Virus record (IMG/VR): IMGVR_UViG_3300034093_002412
Coordinates: 1-22,292 of that record
DNA from: a virus
Reading direction: 5' to 3' (one strand)
Length of the DNA: 22,292 nt
Shown: piece after piece, positions 5,250 to 19,923 of the stretch
Layout of the letters: each line of letters starts with the position of its first letter
Position numbering within the stretch: position 1 is the stretch's first letter
The notes under the pieces: generated by a model
Told to the model about the DNA's origin: nothing
What the model saw: the letters and a program-made list of their open reading frames with translations, nothing else
Databases searched by the model: none
Translations under genes and position numbers: made by a program

Positions 5250-6604
5250 GAGTTGATCAAGTTGGTTACGCTTGCGCGGTTCTGATTCAGCATTTTCAAG
5301 ATGCGATTATATCTTGCCATGTGTCCCGTGTCAATCTTATATAGCGCATCATCGTTTAATCCGTAGTCAAGCGGGACGCTGAAAACTGGTGCAACGCTTT
5401 TTTTAATGGTTACGCATTGACTGGTCAAAAACCACCCAATGATTGCATCATCAGCGATGGCAGAATCTTGATCTTGACTTATGCAATAAGCAAAAAACTT
5501 CAAAAGCTTTGATTTATCAATATCTCCGCGCTTAACCATAATTCCGCGCCAAGCTTCTGGAATGGTTTGAGATTGAGCCTCTACAGTTGCATTTGCTAAT
5601 GCCGTCGATGATTTGAATACGCTGTATTCTCTCACCATTCGCTCAATCATTTGGCATGAATAGTGGTTGTCATCATCAATGATCAAAATCAAATCGTTTT
5701 CATCCGTGACAAAATCCAATGCCCCTATCCATTTTGTAATAGATCCACAATCATCACAGCGATGGACATGCACAATATCAGACATGGCAGCAAGCTCTGA
5801 CACTAAAGATTCCTCGTATATTTCGCCCGTTCGATGTAATTTGTAAGGGATAGATAAAACAATCCCAGCAGGTTTGATTCTGTTATCCAAAATCGACTGT
5901 ATTGCTTGTTTTGCATTTGCCAGCCTGCTCGGTGTAATCGACATGCACGCCCATACTTTGCGATCCGTCTTATGTATTGGAGAACCTTTTTTCAAGTGCA
6001 TCATTTCAGCGTAAGCAAGCTCGCGCTTTTCTGGATCTCTACCATGAATTCCACAGTGGATGACCATGGCGCGATTTCCTTCGTAAGTATCAGCTCTCCT
6101 CACAAGGGAGTTGTAAAACAAATGCACGCCGTTTGGGTATAGCGTTCGGATTGCATCGCATATCAAAACGTCCTCATCCCCTTTTCGTCCGCATAAACTT
6201 TTTTGCAATTCGATCTCCAGCATTACTTCTCGACGAATTGCGTATGATATGCCAAGAAAACGATTTGGTCTTTCTCGCCACTGTATGCCAGTTGCTTTGA
6301 CGTTTTGATCTGTAAACGGGTCAAACATGCCTCCCATCAAGTGCCATGCGTCCACATCCAATTTTGCAACAATATCGGCATTTGTTTTGAGCATTGCGTT
6401 TATCATGCCACTGCCGCCATTATAATCCCAGTCCGCAATAACAATTGGCAAACCGTAAGACTCCTCAACTGGATCTTTCCTATCGTTGCCAAGCCACAAT
6501 TCAACGTCTGGATAGATTTTACGCCATTGGTCAATAAATAAAGGAAGCATTTTTTCATCACGCTTCCCACAAATCACGATCGCTGCTGTCGTTTCTTTTT
6601 TCAT
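5246..6604 (-). CDS. Glycosyltransferase with two GT-A-like domains
   Basis: 452 residues from ATG at 6604, five bases after the upstream stop. An in-frame ATG at 6649 would add 15 basic residues and overlap that gene, so I prefer 6604. Domain 1 (about 1-205) starts with a Rossmann-like strand AAIVICGKR and has D83-V-D85 after a strand (IVAKLDVDA), a DxD motif for a metal and nucleotide-sugar. Domain 2 (about 215-452) starts with VWACMSITPSRLANAKQAIQSIL and has D310-D311-D312 (LILIIDDDNHY), with an acidic LNDDALYKID segment near the end. It probably transfers sugars to a virion protein or a cell-surface glycan. It sits inside the tail operon between tail-tip and fibre genes. The gene looks slightly more AT-rich than its neighbours, by eye. 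Confidence 0.75.
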   Translation of the reverse strand: MKKETTAAIVICGKRDEKMLPLFIDQWRKIYPDVELWLGNDRKDPVEESYGLPIVIADWDYNGGSGMINAMLKTNADIVAKLDVDAWHLMGGMFDPFTDQNVKATGIQWRERPNRFLGISYAIRREVMLEIELQKSLCGRKGDEDVLICDAIRTLYPNGVHLFYNSLVRRADTYEGNRAMVIHCGIHGRDPEKRELAYAEMMHLKKGSPIHKTDRKVWACMSITPSRLANAKQAIQSILDNRIKPAGIVLSIPYKLHRTGEIYEESLVSELAAMSDIVHVHRCDDCGSITKWIGALDFVTDENDLILIIDDDNHYSCQMIERMVREYSVFKSSTALANATVEAQSQTIPEAWRGIMVKRGDIDKSKLLKFFAYCISQDQDSAIADDAIIGWFLTSQCVTIKKSVAPVFSVPLDYGLNDDALYKIDTGHMARYNRILKMLNQNRASVTNLINS

Positions 6605-13453: not shown

Positions 13454-13921
13454 TTATTTGTTGAGTTTGTCCCAATTTTTGAGCGTTGCCTCTAGGCGAG
13501 CTTTCGCATCGGGAATAGCTGCGATTTTTTCGCGCAGTTGTGATGCGCTTAAATTGTTTTCTTTGGAAACTTCCAAGTTGATTGGAGGATGACCAGCCTC
13601 GGCAAGCAAAGCAGTTGCTTTGTTGGTTGCGCTTTGCTCGGCTTCTGCAATTGCTTTTTGAGCTGCTTCAAGCTCTGCTGCTGATTGCTCAGATTGCGCA
13701 GTGATTGCTTCTTCACGCTCTGCAACGGTTGCTGTGGCGTTGTCACGCTCTGCTGTGACCGCTGCAAGTGATGCTTGCAAGTCTGCAATGGTCTGAGAGT
13801 TTTGAGCGTTGAGGTCTTGAGCCTCGGCGAGTGATGCTTGCAATTCCGTTGTTTCAGACTCCAAAAGCCCGATTTTTGAAAGTGCTGCTTCGTGGTCTTT
13901 TTTGGTTACGAAAAACGACAT
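13454..13921 (-). CDS. Coiled-coil scaffold candidate
   Basis: 155 residues from ATG at 13921 (MSFFVTKKDHEAALSK). An ATG at 13948 in the same frame lies inside the 25-bp element and would add MQLLCNCNR; I consider it less likely. Residues about 8-105 are a long heptad-like coil rich in Ala, Glu and Gln (LLESETTELQASLAEAQDLNAQ...). A small C-terminal domain follows (PPINLEVSKENNLSASQLREKIAAIPDAKARLEATL), which could bind capsid. Scaffold proteins guide procapsid assembly and are removed by the head protease. In lambda the scaffold is nested in the protease gene; here it is separate. The position between protease and capsid supports the call. Confidence 0.65.
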   Translation of the reverse strand: MSFFVTKKDHEAALSKIGLLESETTELQASLAEAQDLNAQNSQTIADLQASLAAVTAERDNATATVAEREEAITAQSEQSAAELEAAQKAIAEAEQSATNKATALLAEAGHPPINLEVSKENNLSASQLREKIAAIPDAKARLEATLKNWDKLNK

Positions 13922-13927
13922 GCGATT

Positions 13928-13952
13928 ACAATTGCATAAAAGTTGCATTAAG
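13928..13952. promoter_or_regulatory. 25-bp dyad element, copy A
   Basis: ACAATTGCA, seven bases, then TGCATTAAG. It fills the gap between the protease stop (13953-13955) and the scaffold-candidate start (13921), leaving no room for a Shine-Dalgarno sequence. It matches copies at 16467, 18766 and 18978 with the same seven-base spacer. Confidence 0.6.
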
Positions 13953-14714
13953 TCAAGCGGGAATTTTTAACCCGATGATTTCATCGACTAAGCCAAGTTG
14001 CAAAGCCCGATCTCCAGAATACCAGCCTGCACGGAAAACTTCTTCGTCAACGTCTCGTTGCTCTGAAACAAACGATTTAAACGTTTCGCCAAATTGGTTT
14101 GCGGATTCTTGCAAAAATGCTAATTGCTCTGCGTTTGGCTCCAGATGGAAAGTTGATTTCAGCGTTGCGCCTTCGTTGGTAATTGCTTTTTCTTGCAATC
14201 CGTTCATGCGGTGGTTTTCTGAGTAATCAGTCCATGTCATGATTGTGCCGATGTTGCCGATCTGTGCTGTCTCGGTTGCTGCGATGTAATCGGTTGCACT
14301 TGCGAGCATGTAAGCCGCTGAGCAAGCGCAAGACGTGACAAATGCCACTGTCGGCACGGATAACGAAGCGATAAACCGAGAAAGCTCAATAGCACCATTT
14401 ACGCTGCCGCCGCCGCTGTTGATTCGTAGTTCGATTGCACCGGCTCCAGCCATGATTGCGCCTTCAATCTCAGCGCGGATCGTGTTGTATGTGGTAACGA
14501 TTCCAACTTTTTCGTAGATCGCTGGAACGTCATTTGTGAGCAATCCTTGAATTGAAATGATGCCAACTCCATCAACGATTTGAGCCGCTGGGCGCAGTTG
14601 GTAAAAGTCGTCAATCTCAATATCGTCGATTGATGCTGTAATTGCTTTTCGGTAATGCAATGCATCGCAAGCAAAAATCTGCTGCGGTGCTAGTAAATTA
14701 TTGAGCTGGTTCAT
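13953..14714 (-). CDS. S49-family head maturation protease (gpC-like)
   Basis: 253 residues from ATG at 14714, overlapping the portal gene end by 17 bp. The ClpP/crotonase-like core shows ELRINSGGGSV (96-105, oxyanion region), then SCACSAAYMLAS with the likely nucleophile Ser132, and QIGNIGTIM (151-159). A Lys at 186 (EGATLKSTF), 54 residues after the Ser, is in the place of the general base. In lambda-like phages this enzyme trims scaffold and portal in the procapsid. It is shorter than lambda gpC (439 residues), which carries the scaffold at its end; here the scaffold candidate is the next gene. Confidence 0.85.
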   Translation of the reverse strand: MNQLNNLLAPQQIFACDALHYRKAITASIDDIEIDDFYQLRPAAQIVDGVGIISIQGLLTNDVPAIYEKVGIVTTYNTIRAEIEGAIMAGAGAIELRINSGGGSVNGAIELSRFIASLSVPTVAFVTSCACSAAYMLASATDYIAATETAQIGNIGTIMTWTDYSENHRMNGLQEKAITNEGATLKSTFHLEPNAEQLAFLQESANQFGETFKSFVSEQRDVDEEVFRAGWYSGDRALQLGLVDEIIGLKIPA

Positions 14715-16167
14715 CTGGTTGGTTGATTGGTGTTGCTGTTTCGTTTGGCGTTAGCATGACCATTTCGCGGTCGTCGATTATTACGTTGTCTCGATCTGCA
14801 ATCTCTTGCGCAATCCGTTTGCGCAATGATACTTCTTCCGCACGCTCTCTGTAAAACTCATCAATTGGTTTTCCATTCGATGCTTGGATCTCGGTCATGT
14901 TGATGGTTCCGAGCTTGTAACCCTCGCGCATTGCTTGCTGCTCCCGTCCGTCATCAACGGTCAAGATTGGAGGTGTCGAAAAGATCCAAGCAAACGGCGC
15001 ATCAACCTGGTTGATACGATTGGTCTTGCGAAAAACTGAATAAGCATAAGTCAGCATTCTGCGTGCTGCGTATTTTAGTGTTTTTTGCCGGCTGACAATT
15101 GCACGGCGAGCACGTAAAACGTCTGCGCGTTCCGCTGTGCCTTGTCCCGCTGCTTTCCACACCATCGAGTAAGACCACTTGATTCCAACAAGTGCGCTTC
15201 GGATCATGCGGTCATGAAAAGATTCCCAAACTTCACCGGGGTTTTCGTGTTTCAATTGAGTTAATCCGCTGCCAGAATTGGCTTTAAAATAACGGATTTG
15301 ACCTTGCTCATAAGTCTCGGTTAAAACACCCGATTGATTGTTGCAACACGCATCGTCGTTGGCTGGGTCATCAAGATCAGCACCGCCAATTTCATTGTTT
15401 TCAATGAGTCCAATGCTGGAAATAATCATTTGTCGAACTCGCTCGTATTCCGTTGATTGCAAGCAATGGCGCAAATCCTCCAATGCATGCGTAAATGCTG
15501 GGAATCCGCGCCCTTGCTCTTGATAAACTTCGTCCATGAGGTGAATCACAGAATAGGCTGGAACGTCATTGAATTGATCAACATCGTCACCAGTAGAGAT
15601 TCGGTAAGCAATTGCACGTTGTCTGCCATCATAAATAACGCCATCGCGAATGATTGATCCAGCGTATGCTCCAGAATCAAGCGGTTGATTGTCTGGCACT
15701 CCTTTGTTGTTAACTGCGTAGCCGGGTATTTGCTGGATCAATGGAAATTCTCCGCTTTCATCGGTCGTCAAAAGCAAAAAGCTGTCCCCGTCTCGATCCA
15801 TGCCAACGCTTGCATTGTTCAAAATGCTTTGCCAATCACGCAAACCGCCTCTGACATCGCAGTTTGGGAACCATACGTTGCGGAAAAAATCCGCTGCCGC
15901 TTCTCCATCTGCTTTATCAACCTTTCCAACGTAAGACGGCAAAAATGCTTCGCCTACCGAAAAGTCTGCTTTTTGCAAGATCGCGGCGCGTGGCACTCCC
16001 ATGTTTGTAAATAAACGTCGAGACAATGCCGCCAGCGTGTTGCGGTCATGCATTGGAATCAGCTTGTTTACGTCAATGTTTGGCGTCCGTAAGACTGGTC
16101 CACGGCGCGGCGATTGCGTTGCTGCGTGTGCAAATTTAAGTGAGTTTCCGTATTGATCAACTAGCAT
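14698..16167 (-). CDS. Portal protein (lambda gpB family)
   Basis: 489 residues from ATG at 16167, three bases after the gpW-like stop. The N-terminal part has NKLIPMHDRNTLAALSRRLFTNMGVPRAAILQKADFSVGEAFLP and then DGDSFLLLTTDESGEFPLIQQIPGYAVNN, the pattern of Phage_portal_2 proteins. A long helical segment follows (MVWKAAGQGTAERADVLRARRAIVSRQKTLKYAARRML), as in the wing/stem part. Twelve copies form the ring at one capsid vertex through which DNA passes. The length and place (after terminase and joiner, before protease) agree with lambda gpB (533 residues). Confidence 0.88.
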   Translation of the reverse strand: MLVDQYGNSLKFAHAATQSPRRGPVLRTPNIDVNKLIPMHDRNTLAALSRRLFTNMGVPRAAILQKADFSVGEAFLPSYVGKVDKADGEAAADFFRNVWFPNCDVRGGLRDWQSILNNASVGMDRDGDSFLLLTTDESGEFPLIQQIPGYAVNNKGVPDNQPLDSGAYAGSIIRDGVIYDGRQRAIAYRISTGDDVDQFNDVPAYSVIHLMDEVYQEQGRGFPAFTHALEDLRHCLQSTEYERVRQMIISSIGLIENNEIGGADLDDPANDDACCNNQSGVLTETYEQGQIRYFKANSGSGLTQLKHENPGEVWESFHDRMIRSALVGIKWSYSMVWKAAGQGTAERADVLRARRAIVSRQKTLKYAARRMLTYAYSVFRKTNRINQVDAPFAWIFSTPPILTVDDGREQQAMREGYKLGTINMTEIQASNGKPIDEFYRERAEEVSLRKRIAQEIADRDNVIIDDREMVMLTPNETATPINQPDEPAQ

Positions 16168-16170
16168 AAA

Positions 16171-16461
16171 TCAGGACTGATAACCTCCAGAGTAAAAGGT
16201 TCTGTTTGGGTTTGAAAAACGATTGTGATCAACGTGCCACAAAGCGCGTTCAATCATTTTCAGCTTGTCGCCTTTTGTCATTGTGACAGTTTTACCAAAG
16301 CTTTGACCGTTAACCGTTGCGCTTGTGATTTCGCTGGCTCCGTCTGATCCTGTGGCGATTTCTAGCGCAAGTCTGCCGTATTCCGCGCGGATCTGCGCTT
16401 GCATCGCTTGATTATACCGCATGGCTTTTGCCACCGATAACGCCGTTTCGGAAATGCTCAT
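16171..16461 (-). CDS. gpW-like head-tail joining protein candidate
   Basis: 96 residues from ATG at 16461. N-terminal helix (ISETALSVAKAMRYNQAMQAQIRAEYGRLALEIATG), a short strand part (SATVNGQSFGKTVTMTKG), and a second helix (KLKMIERALWHVDHNR): the helix-strand-helix order of gpW. Lambda gpW is 68 residues and lies between A and B, the same slot. There is no Shine-Dalgarno sequence; the 25-bp element fills the gap between the large-terminase stop and this ATG. Confidence 0.6.
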   Translation of the reverse strand: MSISETALSVAKAMRYNQAMQAQIRAEYGRLALEIATGSDGASEITSATVNGQSFGKTVTMTKGDKLKMIERALWHVDHNRFSNPNRTFYSGGYQS

Positions 16462-16466
16462 GAGTT

Positions 16467-16491
16467 ACAATTGCAAATTTTATGCAATAAG
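16467..16491. promoter_or_regulatory. 25-bp dyad element, copy B
   Basis: ACAATTGCA, seven bases, TGCAATAAG. The dyad ATTGCA-N7-TGCAAT is perfect. As in copy A, it fills the gap between a TGA (16492-16494) and the next ATG (16461), so it could act as DNA operator or as an RNA hairpin over the start. Confidence 0.6.
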
Positions 16492-18189
16492 TCAAGCCGA
16501 AATTCCGAAAACCCCTTTGAGGTCTGCAACGGCAACGCCGTAATACTGGCAATCGAGCAAATGGTTTGCTTTTTTGATTTGCTTCCAATAGGTCGAAATT
16601 TCGCCCGTTTTTGCGTTCACCGCCTCAACTTTGATTTCCGATTCCATGTGCGCTCTGTATGCCGCTGTCACGTCATCTGGGGTGATAATCCGCCCAATAC
16701 CGCGCAATCGTTGCATCATGTCTTTGTAAACCTTTGTGGACACAAAGAAATAACGTGCCGTCTTGCCATTGCGACATGTTTTGTAATTGTAACGGGAATA
16801 GGTTTTTTGAATGATTTTGCCAGATTGCGTCTTGTGTGGAAATGATTCTCGCTGATCGCCCCTAATCCCGATCCATCCGTTGCGCTCGCAAATGTCCAAT
16901 GATTCGTCAAAGTTCCACGAGCTGTCCACATAAACGCAATTGTCAGCAATGCCAAGCTTGGTTTGCACGGCGCGAATGTCGCTTTCTTCGTGCAAATATC
17001 CTTCGCTCAAAACATGGATTTTGCCATCATGCGTTCCAACTTGTGCAACGTGCCAGAAATGGTCTTTGCCTCGGTCGCAAGTCATAAATCGGCATGCCTC
17101 GCCATCCAGCTTGTCAGCGTTGATTTCTTCCTTGGTATATCCTCCGCTGGTGATCTCAGCCCGTTCCTCGATCCGTTCTTCGTCCCAAAATTCCGCACGG
17201 TCTTTTTGCACAAATTGTTTGTAAGGTTCGATGACTCCAGCTTTCAATGCTGCCATTGCTCTTGTTTTCCGCTCCCACATTTCACCCCATGACACCCACC
17301 AAACCGCTAGGCGATTGAATGTTGCGTAAACCGTGCCTTGCTCAGTTCCTTTTCGAGTCATGACGTATTGCGCAGAATCGCATAAATCGCGCCTGTTTCG
17401 CGTTGTGTCCTCGATCTGATGCTCGCATGCCGCGCACTTCATCCGCGCCGTTTGCTTGGTCGCTAAGTAATCCAATTCCCCGTCAACGGTTATTTCATCA
17501 ACTTCGATTTGAGAATCACAATACGGCTGGAGCGTGTCGCAGTTTGGGCATGCAAAATGGAAATGATACTCATCGCCTTTTTGCGTTTCTGCGTAAAACT
17601 CAGATTGTTTTTTGCCACCTTGCGAAATGAGATAGCCTTTGCGGTTCCAGCGGTCGTGATGCCGTGCGAAAAACTCTTTGATCAAACCGTGATCCCATCG
17701 CCATGCTTCATCGCCAAAAAGGTAACGGCAAGAAGCCTCTTGGAAGTTTGACATGTTGGCACCTCCAAAGCTCATCGCCATATGCGGAAAGATTATATCA
17801 AGCTTTCTGCTTGCGTGCCGATCCTCGGGCCATAGTCCATCGAGTGCTTTGCATGCCATCAATGACGGTTTAAGTCGTGTCTCAACAAAGATTTTTGCCT
17901 TGTCGTTTGATTGGCAAGCGTAAAGTGACCGACCAGGGTTTTCTGCTGCAATGTAATTGTGCAATGCTTCCACCGCTGTGGATTTGCCAGATCCAGTCGG
18001 AGCAACTACAATTACTTTTTTCACCTTGCTATCTCCCATCGCGTCCAACGGCATTCGCCACCACGGGTATTGATTGACATCGTAAAATGGTGCGCGTTCC
18101 GATCCGATGACCTTTACGTTTTTCATGCACCAGTCTGAAACGCTCAGATTTGTTGGTGGTCTAATCGCGCGTCGAAATTCATCACTCAT
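16492..18189 (-). CDS. Terminase large subunit (GpA family)
   Basis: 565 residues from ATG at 18189, overlapping the small-subunit stop. The ATPase part has Walker A APTGSGKS (63-70) and Walker B YLFGDEAW (156-163) with Asp160-Glu161. Two CxxC pairs (214/217 and 252/255) form a likely zinc ribbon. The nuclease half has acidic positions in MTCDRGKDHFW and CVYVDSSWNFDE, and ends with the NHLLDCQYYGVAVADL helix typical of GpA enzymes. It cuts the concatemer at cos sites and drives DNA into the procapsid. Length is a little below lambda gpA (641). GpA-type enzymes usually mean cos packaging. Confidence 0.93.
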   Translation of the reverse strand: MSDEFRRAIRPPTNLSVSDWCMKNVKVIGSERAPFYDVNQYPWWRMPLDAMGDSKVKKVIVVAPTGSGKSTAVEALHNYIAAENPGRSLYACQSNDKAKIFVETRLKPSLMACKALDGLWPEDRHASRKLDIIFPHMAMSFGGANMSNFQEASCRYLFGDEAWRWDHGLIKEFFARHHDRWNRKGYLISQGGKKQSEFYAETQKGDEYHFHFACPNCDTLQPYCDSQIEVDEITVDGELDYLATKQTARMKCAACEHQIEDTTRNRRDLCDSAQYVMTRKGTEQGTVYATFNRLAVWWVSWGEMWERKTRAMAALKAGVIEPYKQFVQKDRAEFWDEERIEERAEITSGGYTKEEINADKLDGEACRFMTCDRGKDHFWHVAQVGTHDGKIHVLSEGYLHEESDIRAVQTKLGIADNCVYVDSSWNFDESLDICERNGWIGIRGDQRESFPHKTQSGKIIQKTYSRYNYKTCRNGKTARYFFVSTKVYKDMMQRLRGIGRIITPDDVTAAYRAHMESEIKVEAVNAKTGEISTYWKQIKKANHLLDCQYYGVAVADLKGVFGISA

Positions 18190-18725
18190 AGCTCAGATTT
18201 GTCCAGTGCGTTTTGACGTTTTTGGATGTTGATCCAAAGCTCTGATTGCGAGTCCGAAAGTTCCTCCAAAATGCCTCGGCAGGTGTCCATCAAAATTGAT
18301 TCCATCGTTGCTGGGTCTTGTCCTTCAAGTTGTCCCGGCATGTCATTGGGAATACGCATGATCGCAGTTCTGACCGCTACGCCAATCGCGCTATCACGTT
18401 CGCGGATCTCGCCAAGCGGTAAAGTTTCCATGCGCTCGTTCGCCAATTTGACTTCAACCATCTGCGCATCGAGGTATGCTTTCTTCGCTTTCGATTCTTC
18501 AAGCGGTGGGATGCCTTCGGCGAGCGAAACTTCTTTTCCGCTGATGCCTTGCAAATATTTGATGTAATCCGTTGCCGTGTCCGGTAGATCGTATTGGTTT
18601 TGCGAGTTTTTGCGCAAAATTCCCATTTTCGTCAATTCGGCGATGCGTTTTTTCGTGATGTTTAGCACGTCACAAAGTTGCATCGTTCCCACGCTCGCGA
18701 GCTTTTCAAGTCTTGGTCTGCCCAT
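18186..18725 (-). CDS. Terminase small subunit (Nu1-like)
   Basis: 179 residues from ATG at 18725, with a good Shine-Dalgarno sequence (AGGA, 5-6 bp upstream). The N-terminal winged helix (MQLCDVLNITKKRIAELTKMGILRKNSQNQYDL) matches Nu1-type DNA-binding domains. Then SKAKKAYLDAQMVEVKLANERMETLPLGEIRERD is the helical linker usual in this family, and the C-terminal helices should bind the large subunit. It recognises the packaging site, which in lambda lies just upstream of this gene. The non-coding leader at 18726-19118 with its repeats is therefore the first place to look for cos. Confidence 0.85.
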   Translation of the reverse strand: MGRPRLEKLASVGTMQLCDVLNITKKRIAELTKMGILRKNSQNQYDLPDTATDYIKYLQGISGKEVSLAEGIPPLEESKAKKAYLDAQMVEVKLANERMETLPLGEIRERDSAIGVAVRTAIMRIPNDMPGQLEGQDPATMESILMDTCRGILEELSDSQSELWINIQKRQNALDKSEL

Positions 18726-18765
18726 AATTTCCTATGCGCAAAAATAGCACGTTCACTAGTAACGC

Positions 18766-18790
18766 GCAATTGCAAAATTGTTGCATTAAA
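18766..18790. promoter_or_regulatory. 25-bp dyad element, copy C
   Basis: GCAATTGCA, seven bases, TGCATTAAA. It lies 40 bp upstream of the small terminase start, in the same orientation as the other copies. Confidence 0.6.
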
Positions 18791-18795
18791 AGAGA

Positions 18796-18813
18796 ACGCG
18801 CGACTCTGCGCGT
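18796..18813. repeat. GC-rich inverted repeat in the leader
   Basis: ACGCGC and GCGCGT flank GACTCT: a perfect six-pair stem with a six-base loop. There is no T-run, so it is not a terminator. It could be a leader-RNA hairpin or a protein-binding dyad. Confidence 0.5.
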
Positions 18814-18977
18814 GGAACAAAGCGAGAACCAAAAAGATTCCTTAGTGGGGGTTATATGTATCAATGACTTTTTGCTACATCGTAAGGCATTGCAAACTAA
18901 TTGCGAGCGTGGAACAATTTATAATTTGTTTTGAAATGGCAAATTTTCGATTGGATCGCAGCAAAATTCATCGCTAT

Positions 18978-19002
18978 GCAATTGCAAATTGATTGCAATA
19001 AG
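18978..19002. promoter_or_regulatory. 25-bp dyad element, copy D
   Basis: GCAATTGCA, seven bases, TGCAATAAG, with the perfect dyad ATTGCA-N7-TGCAAT. It lies about 55 bp downstream of the late promoter -10, and its start is 212 bp from that of copy C. Confidence 0.6.
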
Positions 19003-19613: not shown

Positions 19614-19644
19614 TGACGGGTATAGGAGGCATTAGTTCCCGTCA
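19614..19644. repeat. Seven-bp inverted repeat at the end of the DnaA-like gene
   Basis: TGACGGG (19614-19620) and CCCGTCA (19638-19644) are perfect inverted copies with a 17-bp spacer, and the second arm contains the stop of the DnaA-like gene. No T-run follows on either strand. It could be an mRNA hairpin or an operator. Confidence 0.45.
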
Positions 19645-19923
19645 GTCACTCGACTGGGAGAGTGTTAGCGCGGTTTTTGCCGCATCGTAAGCTTTGACCA
19701 TGGCGCGAGCCTGTTCGATCTTTTGGCAATTGCGCCTAACTGTGGCGTGATCCGTGCTGAAAACTAATGCGATCCGCGAGTAAATCCATCCTCGGTCACG
19801 CATGACAGCCTGCACGACTGCGCGAGCGTCTGCAACTTCTTGCACTCGGCTTTTGCTGGTGATTTCGTCTTGGTCAACGTCCATTTCTGCCGCTACGATT
19901 TCGATGATGTCTGAGATTTTCAT
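19642..19923 (-). CDS. Stand-alone DnaA domain IV-like DNA-binding protein
   Basis: 93 residues from ATG at 19923 (ATGA overlap with the MazG-like gene). The sequence follows the DnaA C-terminal domain: IIEIVAAEMDVDQDEITSKSRVQEVADARAVVQAVMRDRG, then YSRIALVFSTDHATVRRNCQKIE (48-70). D58-H59-A-T61-V62 corresponds to the DHSTV/DHTTV signature that reads DnaA boxes. The AAA+ ATPase and DnaB-interacting parts of DnaA are absent. Such a protein could bind host or phage DnaA boxes, competing with or recruiting DnaA, or act as a transcription factor. The role is inferred; the domain assignment is strong. Confidence 0.8.
   Translation of the reverse strand: MKISDIIEIVAAEMDVDQDEITSKSRVQEVADARAVVQAVMRDRGWIYSRIALVFSTDHATVRRNCQKIEQARAMVKAYDAAKTALTLSQSSD

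Follow-up and report, generated by a model that had tools for sequence, protein, structure and literature searches.

A 25-base dyad beside a putative cos site and before two head genes of an uncultured phage

Introduction

What role could a single short palindromic element play when it recurs in the gaps of a phage head-gene region? The question is raised by a 22,292-nucleotide stretch of viral DNA (IMG/VR record IMGVR_UViG_3300034093_002412; hereafter the window, meaning the whole stretch), whose minus strand carries, in this order, the genes for the small and large terminase subunits (terS and terL), a 96-aa protein in the gpW position, the portal, an S49 protease, a scaffold candidate and a major capsid candidate. 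A first-pass annotation had described four copies of a 25-bp element here, RCAATTGCA-N7-TGCAWTAAR, and had proposed either that a dimeric regulator or the small terminase binds it, or that it forms an RNA hairpin that sets the translation of head proteins. Since the genes lie on the minus strand, this pattern is the reverse complement of the functional orientation, which reads YTTAWTGCA-N7-TGCAATTGY, a near-palindrome made of two AWTGCA half-sites (6-bp arms) placed 13 bp apart around an A/T-rich centre. Comparison with 31 related contigs puts the dyad in two settings, a cos-like site and head-gene promoters, and we consider it reasonably probable that it is a double-stranded DNA site for a dimeric protein of the helix-turn-helix type, which would serve both at cos and as the operator of leaderless promoters. 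Genes, dyads, hexamers and the Q-like element of the window described below are all on the minus strand.

Results and discussion

Copies of the dyad in the window and in related phages

Four exact copies were confirmed (13928-13952, 16467-16491, 18766-18790 and 18978-19002), all in one orientation and with a spacer of exactly 7 bases. As the annotation had stated, all four lie outside called genes, in a window whose non-coding share is 734 of 21,431 bases (3.4%, measured from the first to the last called gene). With up to 3 mismatches allowed, five matches were found compared to a mean of 0.45 in shuffled sequence, and none of 100 shuffles reached five. The fifth match (15608-15632, 3 mismatches) falls within the portal gene, and the four strong sites cluster in 5 kb.

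Relatives were collected by TerL and portal searches of IMG/VR, which gave 31 loci. They comprise a contig nearly identical to the window (L008/L027/L034; DNA 97% identical across 13 kb), five sister contigs (TerL 75-78% identity), further groups with portals about 60% identical (clades 2 and 3) and three more loci at 37-42%. The sole cultured phage with a matching portal was Verrucomicrobia phage P8625 (26%), which suggests that the host of these phages is probably a member of the Verrucomicrobiota; scans of genome contigs for a prophage or host link gave no host genome with a detectable relative.

Across about 200 kb of the relatives' loci, matches to the core with at most 1 mismatch were concentrated at the cos region and the adjoining small gene. 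In this phage, the promoters of the gpW-position gene and of the scaffold candidate carry the core as well, and the few other matches are isolated and have 1 mismatch. The exact pattern occurs in 20 stretches of IMG/VR, where the only family members are the near-identical L008 and the clade 3 relatives L012/L018, the remaining stretches being unrelated contexts. Counting dyads by arm over the whole genome gave no clear signal for either the window phage or P8625, because chance dominates such counts at 2 mismatches. The discriminating property of the dyads is their position relative to start codons, not their whole-genome count.

A cos-like site beside terS

Two of the copies lie 5 or 6 nt from the ATG of sizeable genes, but the copy at 18766-18790 (TTTAATGCA-N7-TGCAATTGC) is about 40 nt from the start of terS (18186-18725) and is not adjacent to it. 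When separate assemblies break at one base, this is the signature expected of fixed genome ends, and 13 related contigs (L028, L029, L032/L035, L037, L038, L039, L041, L042, L043, L048, L049, L055 and L034) begin 20, 21 or 23 nt before the AATGCA of this dyad, while L056 starts 15 nt further in. Contigs from the same population may be non-independent, so the independent ends number fewer than 13; the contigs beginning near cos have at least five distinct end sequences. The equivalent position in the window would place cosN-like genome ends at approximately 18795-18815.

A conserved TAAGGAATCTYTT block lies 57-58 nt from AATGCA in every contig that spans the site (the window, L031, L046/L047, L057 and L053/L012). 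In the window it occupies 18832-18844, where it reads TAAGGAATCTTTT and is cosQ-like by position, and it was located at 1834 in L031, 2262 in L046, 7371 in L053 and 1714 in L057. The distance from the dyad to the start of terS varies from 31 to 62. This fixed spacing to TAAGGAATCTYTT, together with the variable distance to terS, indicates that the dyad holds its place relative to the genome ends and not to terS. The copy at cos is the only dyad found throughout the family; its core persists in every clade, and in L031, L033/L056 and L039 one arm reads TACA instead. P8625, with a TerL only about 21% identical, also has TAAGGAATCTTTT (position 567) beside its inferred genome ends, and the block has the look of a cosQ-type element.

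In phage lambda, cos has the order cosQ-cosN-cosB, and the R sites are bound by TerS (PMC4669245). The arrangement seen here is similar in that a conserved Q-like element at a fixed distance, genome ends next to terS (as judged from the contig starts) and a site resembling a protein-binding site just before terS occur together, in a phage with a GpA-type terminase. It differs in having one dyad 20-23 nt from the ends, where lambda has three R sites, and in the presence of the same dyad in head-gene promoters. On the best reading of the sequence comparison, the terS-proximal dyad is part of a cos-like site and is placed like a cosB R site, so that the conserved Q-like element and the cutting region would be followed by the dyad as a fixed component. 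The TAAGGAATCTYTT block could then mark genome ends in uncultured relatives.

Beside the one fixed cos dyad, there are further dyads to the left of the Q-like element, in positions that vary. The window has a weak truncated one there (CGCAATTAGTTTGCAATG, 18888-18905), recognised from sequence only, and the exact copy at 18978-19002, which lies 6 nt ahead of the start codon (ATG) of a short ORF (24 codons). Relatives hold a 49- to 77-aa gene in this slot (18978-19002 to 18844 in the window), between a terminator-like sequence and cos.

Promoter-like sequences before the gpW-position gene and the scaffold candidate

The two copies close to sizeable genes share one layout, namely TTGACT, the dyad, 5 or 6 nt and the ATG. 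At the 96-aa gpW-position gene (16171-16461; no match in Pfam or PHROG), the dyad (16467-16491, CTTATTGCA-N7-TGCAATTGT) is 5 nt from the ATG, and the -35-like TTGACT (16490-16495) includes the TGA stop of terL (16492-18189, GpA type). At the scaffold candidate (13454-13921; a coiled coil with no curated family match), the dyad (13928-13952, CTTAATGCA-N7-TGCAATTGT) is 6 nt from the ATG, and TTGACT (13951-13956) includes the TGA that ends the S49 protease gene. The region matching the scaffold candidate shares one ORF with the S49 protease in L039 and L049.

Of the distinct sequences compared, 14 of 16 carry TTGAC in the 45 nt preceding the gpW-position gene, and 12 of 14 carry it in the same interval before the scaffold candidate. 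The two starts combined (26/30) compare with 0/50 for the regions upstream of terL, portal, S49 and MCP, and where TTGAC is present it is 34-37 nt before the ATG. Two sister contigs have a recognisable sigma-70-type promoter that would leave no leader at the equivalent place, TTGACA-N17-CATAAT-7-ATG in L029 and TTGACT-N17-TAGATT-6-ATG in L031, in which CATAAT and TAGATT have the spacing of a leaderless promoter (-10 at 16-18 bp, ATG 5-8 nt on). The putative window promoters combine a good -35 with a poor -10 (AATTGT at 17-bp spacing). The sequence between the -35 and the ATG is lineage-specific: the window has the TTGCA dyad, the sisters have 11-bp repeats of TGTTAGA or TCTAACA, and clades 2 and 3 have sequences of other kinds. 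The annotation had named the absence of the element from these junctions in relatives as grounds for rejecting it, and this is partly the case: the cos copy is family-wide, but the gpW-position and scaffold junctions differ in the five sisters and in clades 2 and 3. In clade 2 the dyad of the window stands in a TTGACA-dyad-ATG layout before a 67-aa gene (TTGACATAACGCAATCAAATTGCAATTGTCAGCGC-ATG), and in clade 3 it lies 8 nt before the homologue of that gene, without TTGAC. A relaxed search with the promoter pattern retrieved this family and apparent chance matches. The TCTAACA/TGTTAGA repeats, 11 bp apart, occur in the gpW-position and scaffold promoters of sisters L028, L029, L031, L032 and L033 (e.g., L032 5261-5323), and TCTAACA is also frequent elsewhere in the sister contigs, coding DNA included.

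These data suggest how the promoters could work. The dyad spans the region from the TTGACT -35 to the start codon, and a -10 would sit 5-7 nt before the ATG, from which we propose that transcription begins on the ATG or very close to it. With a dimer bound, the spacer and the -10 would be covered and a promoter of a single gene would come under its control, repression being the simplest outcome.

The annotation had also stressed that two copies fill the space between a TGA and the next ATG, where a Shine-Dalgarno sequence should be. The copies do fill that gap, but the TGA forms part of TTGACT, and in relatives TTGAC persists even where it provides no stop codon. The missing Shine-Dalgarno sequence is a weak argument because most genes here are without one, even an SD-like 4-mer being found in only 6 of 36. 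Occupying the gap from stop to ATG would suit an mRNA hairpin that tunes head-gene translation, and among the bare 25-mers the 18978 copy has a fairly good fold (z -2.1). The other three bare 25-mers gave z values of -1.4, -0.2 and 0.2, and with flanks none of the four copies fell below z -0.93 relative to shuffles, that is, they fold no better than shuffled sequence. Arm changes are also uncompensated, both the A/T change in the left arm, which the right arm does not match, and the change of one arm to TACA in the cos copies of L031, L033/L056 and L039. Moreover, under the promoter layout the dyad would lie upstream of the transcript. Taken together, these results make a hairpin role very improbable, and we return to the dyad as a site in double-stranded DNA.

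A different dyad before late genes of P8625

Phage P8625 (NC_029047) carries GTATCC-N7-GGATAC directly before five starts, at 5448 (gpW position), about 9656, 10772, 15594 and 17541, and TTGACA lies about 36 nt upstream in three of them, the gpW-position gene included. The positions immediately preceding starts, 1.9% of all, hold five of the eight matches with at most 2 mismatches (binomial, 1.3e-7, for a motif found before the test and with two starts reassigned by us). The arrangement is conserved in seven IMG/VR stretches from relatives of P8625. It resembles that of the window in having a 6-N7-6 dyad directly before late-gene start codons, with TTGACA upstream in three cases. In contrast, GTATCC/GGATAC is unrelated in sequence to the window dyad and its centre is nearer the start codon. 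The window also has a dyad at cos, whereas neither a copy of the window-type dyad nor P8625's own was seen beside the Q-like element of P8625. A search of the paper on this phage (PMC4642752) found no mention of this arrangement. A perfect GTATCC-N7-GGATAC is also present in the Clp protease-like gene of P8625 (8089-8107), with an in-frame ATG within the dyad, possibly an internal scaffold start.

Candidate binding proteins

One phage-associated factor acting at both cos and the promoters would be the simplest unification. The proposal of a dimeric regulator or the small terminase agrees with the dyad form, with a copy that appears to be a cos component and with two copies in putative promoters, but the binder can be named only among candidates. 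Of the candidates that can be named, the small terminase ranks first. Two points make it attractive, the position of the family-wide copy at cos and the winged helix-turn-helix predicted for its N-terminus. TerS would then bind all copies, in a cosB-like manner at cos and as a repressor or activator at the two head-gene promoters. The protein belongs to PHROG 57, and among known structures it matches MerR-type regulators best; regulators of this type bind dyads located between -35 and -10. These winged-helix and MerR-type matches to the PDB are weak and not significant (E 0.06 or worse), a sequence profile search of TerS against the PDB gave nothing informative, and the predicted recognition helix varies between clades while the dyad does not. 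The TerS sites of lambda are, in addition, separate R sites joined by bending and not one palindrome (PMC4669245). We regard binding of all copies by TerS as rather unlikely on present evidence, though it leads the named candidates. Regarding a MerR-like geometry, in which the dyad has its centre in a spacer of 19-20 bp, the scaffold candidate offers a fit (TTGACT-N20-TGTAAT). The ATG would then, however, be 3 nt after the -10, and the 20-bp spacing is at odds with the sister promoters, which use 17 bp.

A separate phage transcription regulator could bind all copies instead, the cos copy being merely the terS operator. In P8625 dyads stand in the promoters but none was seen at cos, in clades 2 and 3 a dyad is found before the gene of a small basic protein, as autoregulation predicts, and a DnaA-domain protein is encoded beside the site. 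The fixed distance of the cos copy, to the genome ends and not to terS, argues against this regulator, as do the lack of a small basic protein gene in the window and the failure to find DnaA-domain proteins in P8625 or in several relatives' contigs, some of them fragments. We consider such a regulator possible, although on balance doubtful. As specific binders, the 67/77-aa basic protein was rejected, being absent from the window, and so was the stand-alone DnaA domain IV protein (19642-19923), which is encoded by an adjacent gene but was not found in P8625 or several relatives, and for which the half-site differs from the textbook DnaA box.

The constancy of the cos dyad across phages with TerS proteins only about 30% identical would also fit a host DNA-binding protein (e.g., a nucleoid or global regulator) that bends DNA at cos and controls the promoters, and lambda cos employs host IHF (PMC4669245). 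The motif is, however, almost absent from the remaining phage sequence and P8625 has another dyad, which leaves a host factor improbable.

Whichever protein is involved, a single factor may act on both packaging and the expression of head genes. A bolder and tentative proposal, which we hold to be unlikely as it stands, is that the small terminase or one shared factor binds cos and the gpW-position and scaffold promoters, with packaging directly regulating the synthesis of head proteins, and that relatives swap the operator but keep the slot. If our main reading is right, the late genes of these phages would not simply form one operon; single head genes would each be read from a leaderless promoter with an operator particular to the lineage. 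In this phage that operator would be the packaging-site dyad, directly linking packaging to head-gene expression.

Comparison with repeated elements of mycobacteriophages

By its anatomy, the element resembles a cos R site in one place and a phage operator in the others. Two sets of mycobacteriophage elements were compared with it. The SAS of Cluster K phages is an asymmetric 13-mer with a ribosome-site-like AGGAG and the ESAS consists of 17-bp repeats with a variable spacer, both with a function given as unknown (PMC3203893). Like the window dyad, they are repeated elements immediately upstream of starts and in one orientation, with an inverted repeat in ESAS; unlike it, they are not described at cos in the consulted parts of that paper (PMC3203893). 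The dyad was not assigned to this class, since its sequence differs and no GGGATAGGAGCCC-like 13-mer as described there is present. The operators or stoperators of Cluster A phages are bound by a repressor, lie in promoters and in short gaps between genes and point in the direction of transcription, and in this they are comparable to the dyad; they are asymmetric 13-mers bound by a monomer, at more than 20 sites genome-wide (PMC9283540). The element was not placed among them, as it is a dyad with four strong sites within 5 kb.

Genes around the cos-like site

In L046/L047, cos and terS are separated by an inserted ParB-domain gene (L046 2370-3167). The methyltransferase gene of P8625 (from about 648) starts similarly to it, and the annotated start of that methyltransferase gene may be too early. 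In L051 (1-1400), the terS side of cos is inverted relative to the portal gene, probably reflecting a chimeric assembly at the genome end. Stand-alone DnaA domain IV proteins are encoded just upstream of cos not only in the window but also in L046 (376-747) and, in tandem, in L031 (945-1202 and 1199-1471).
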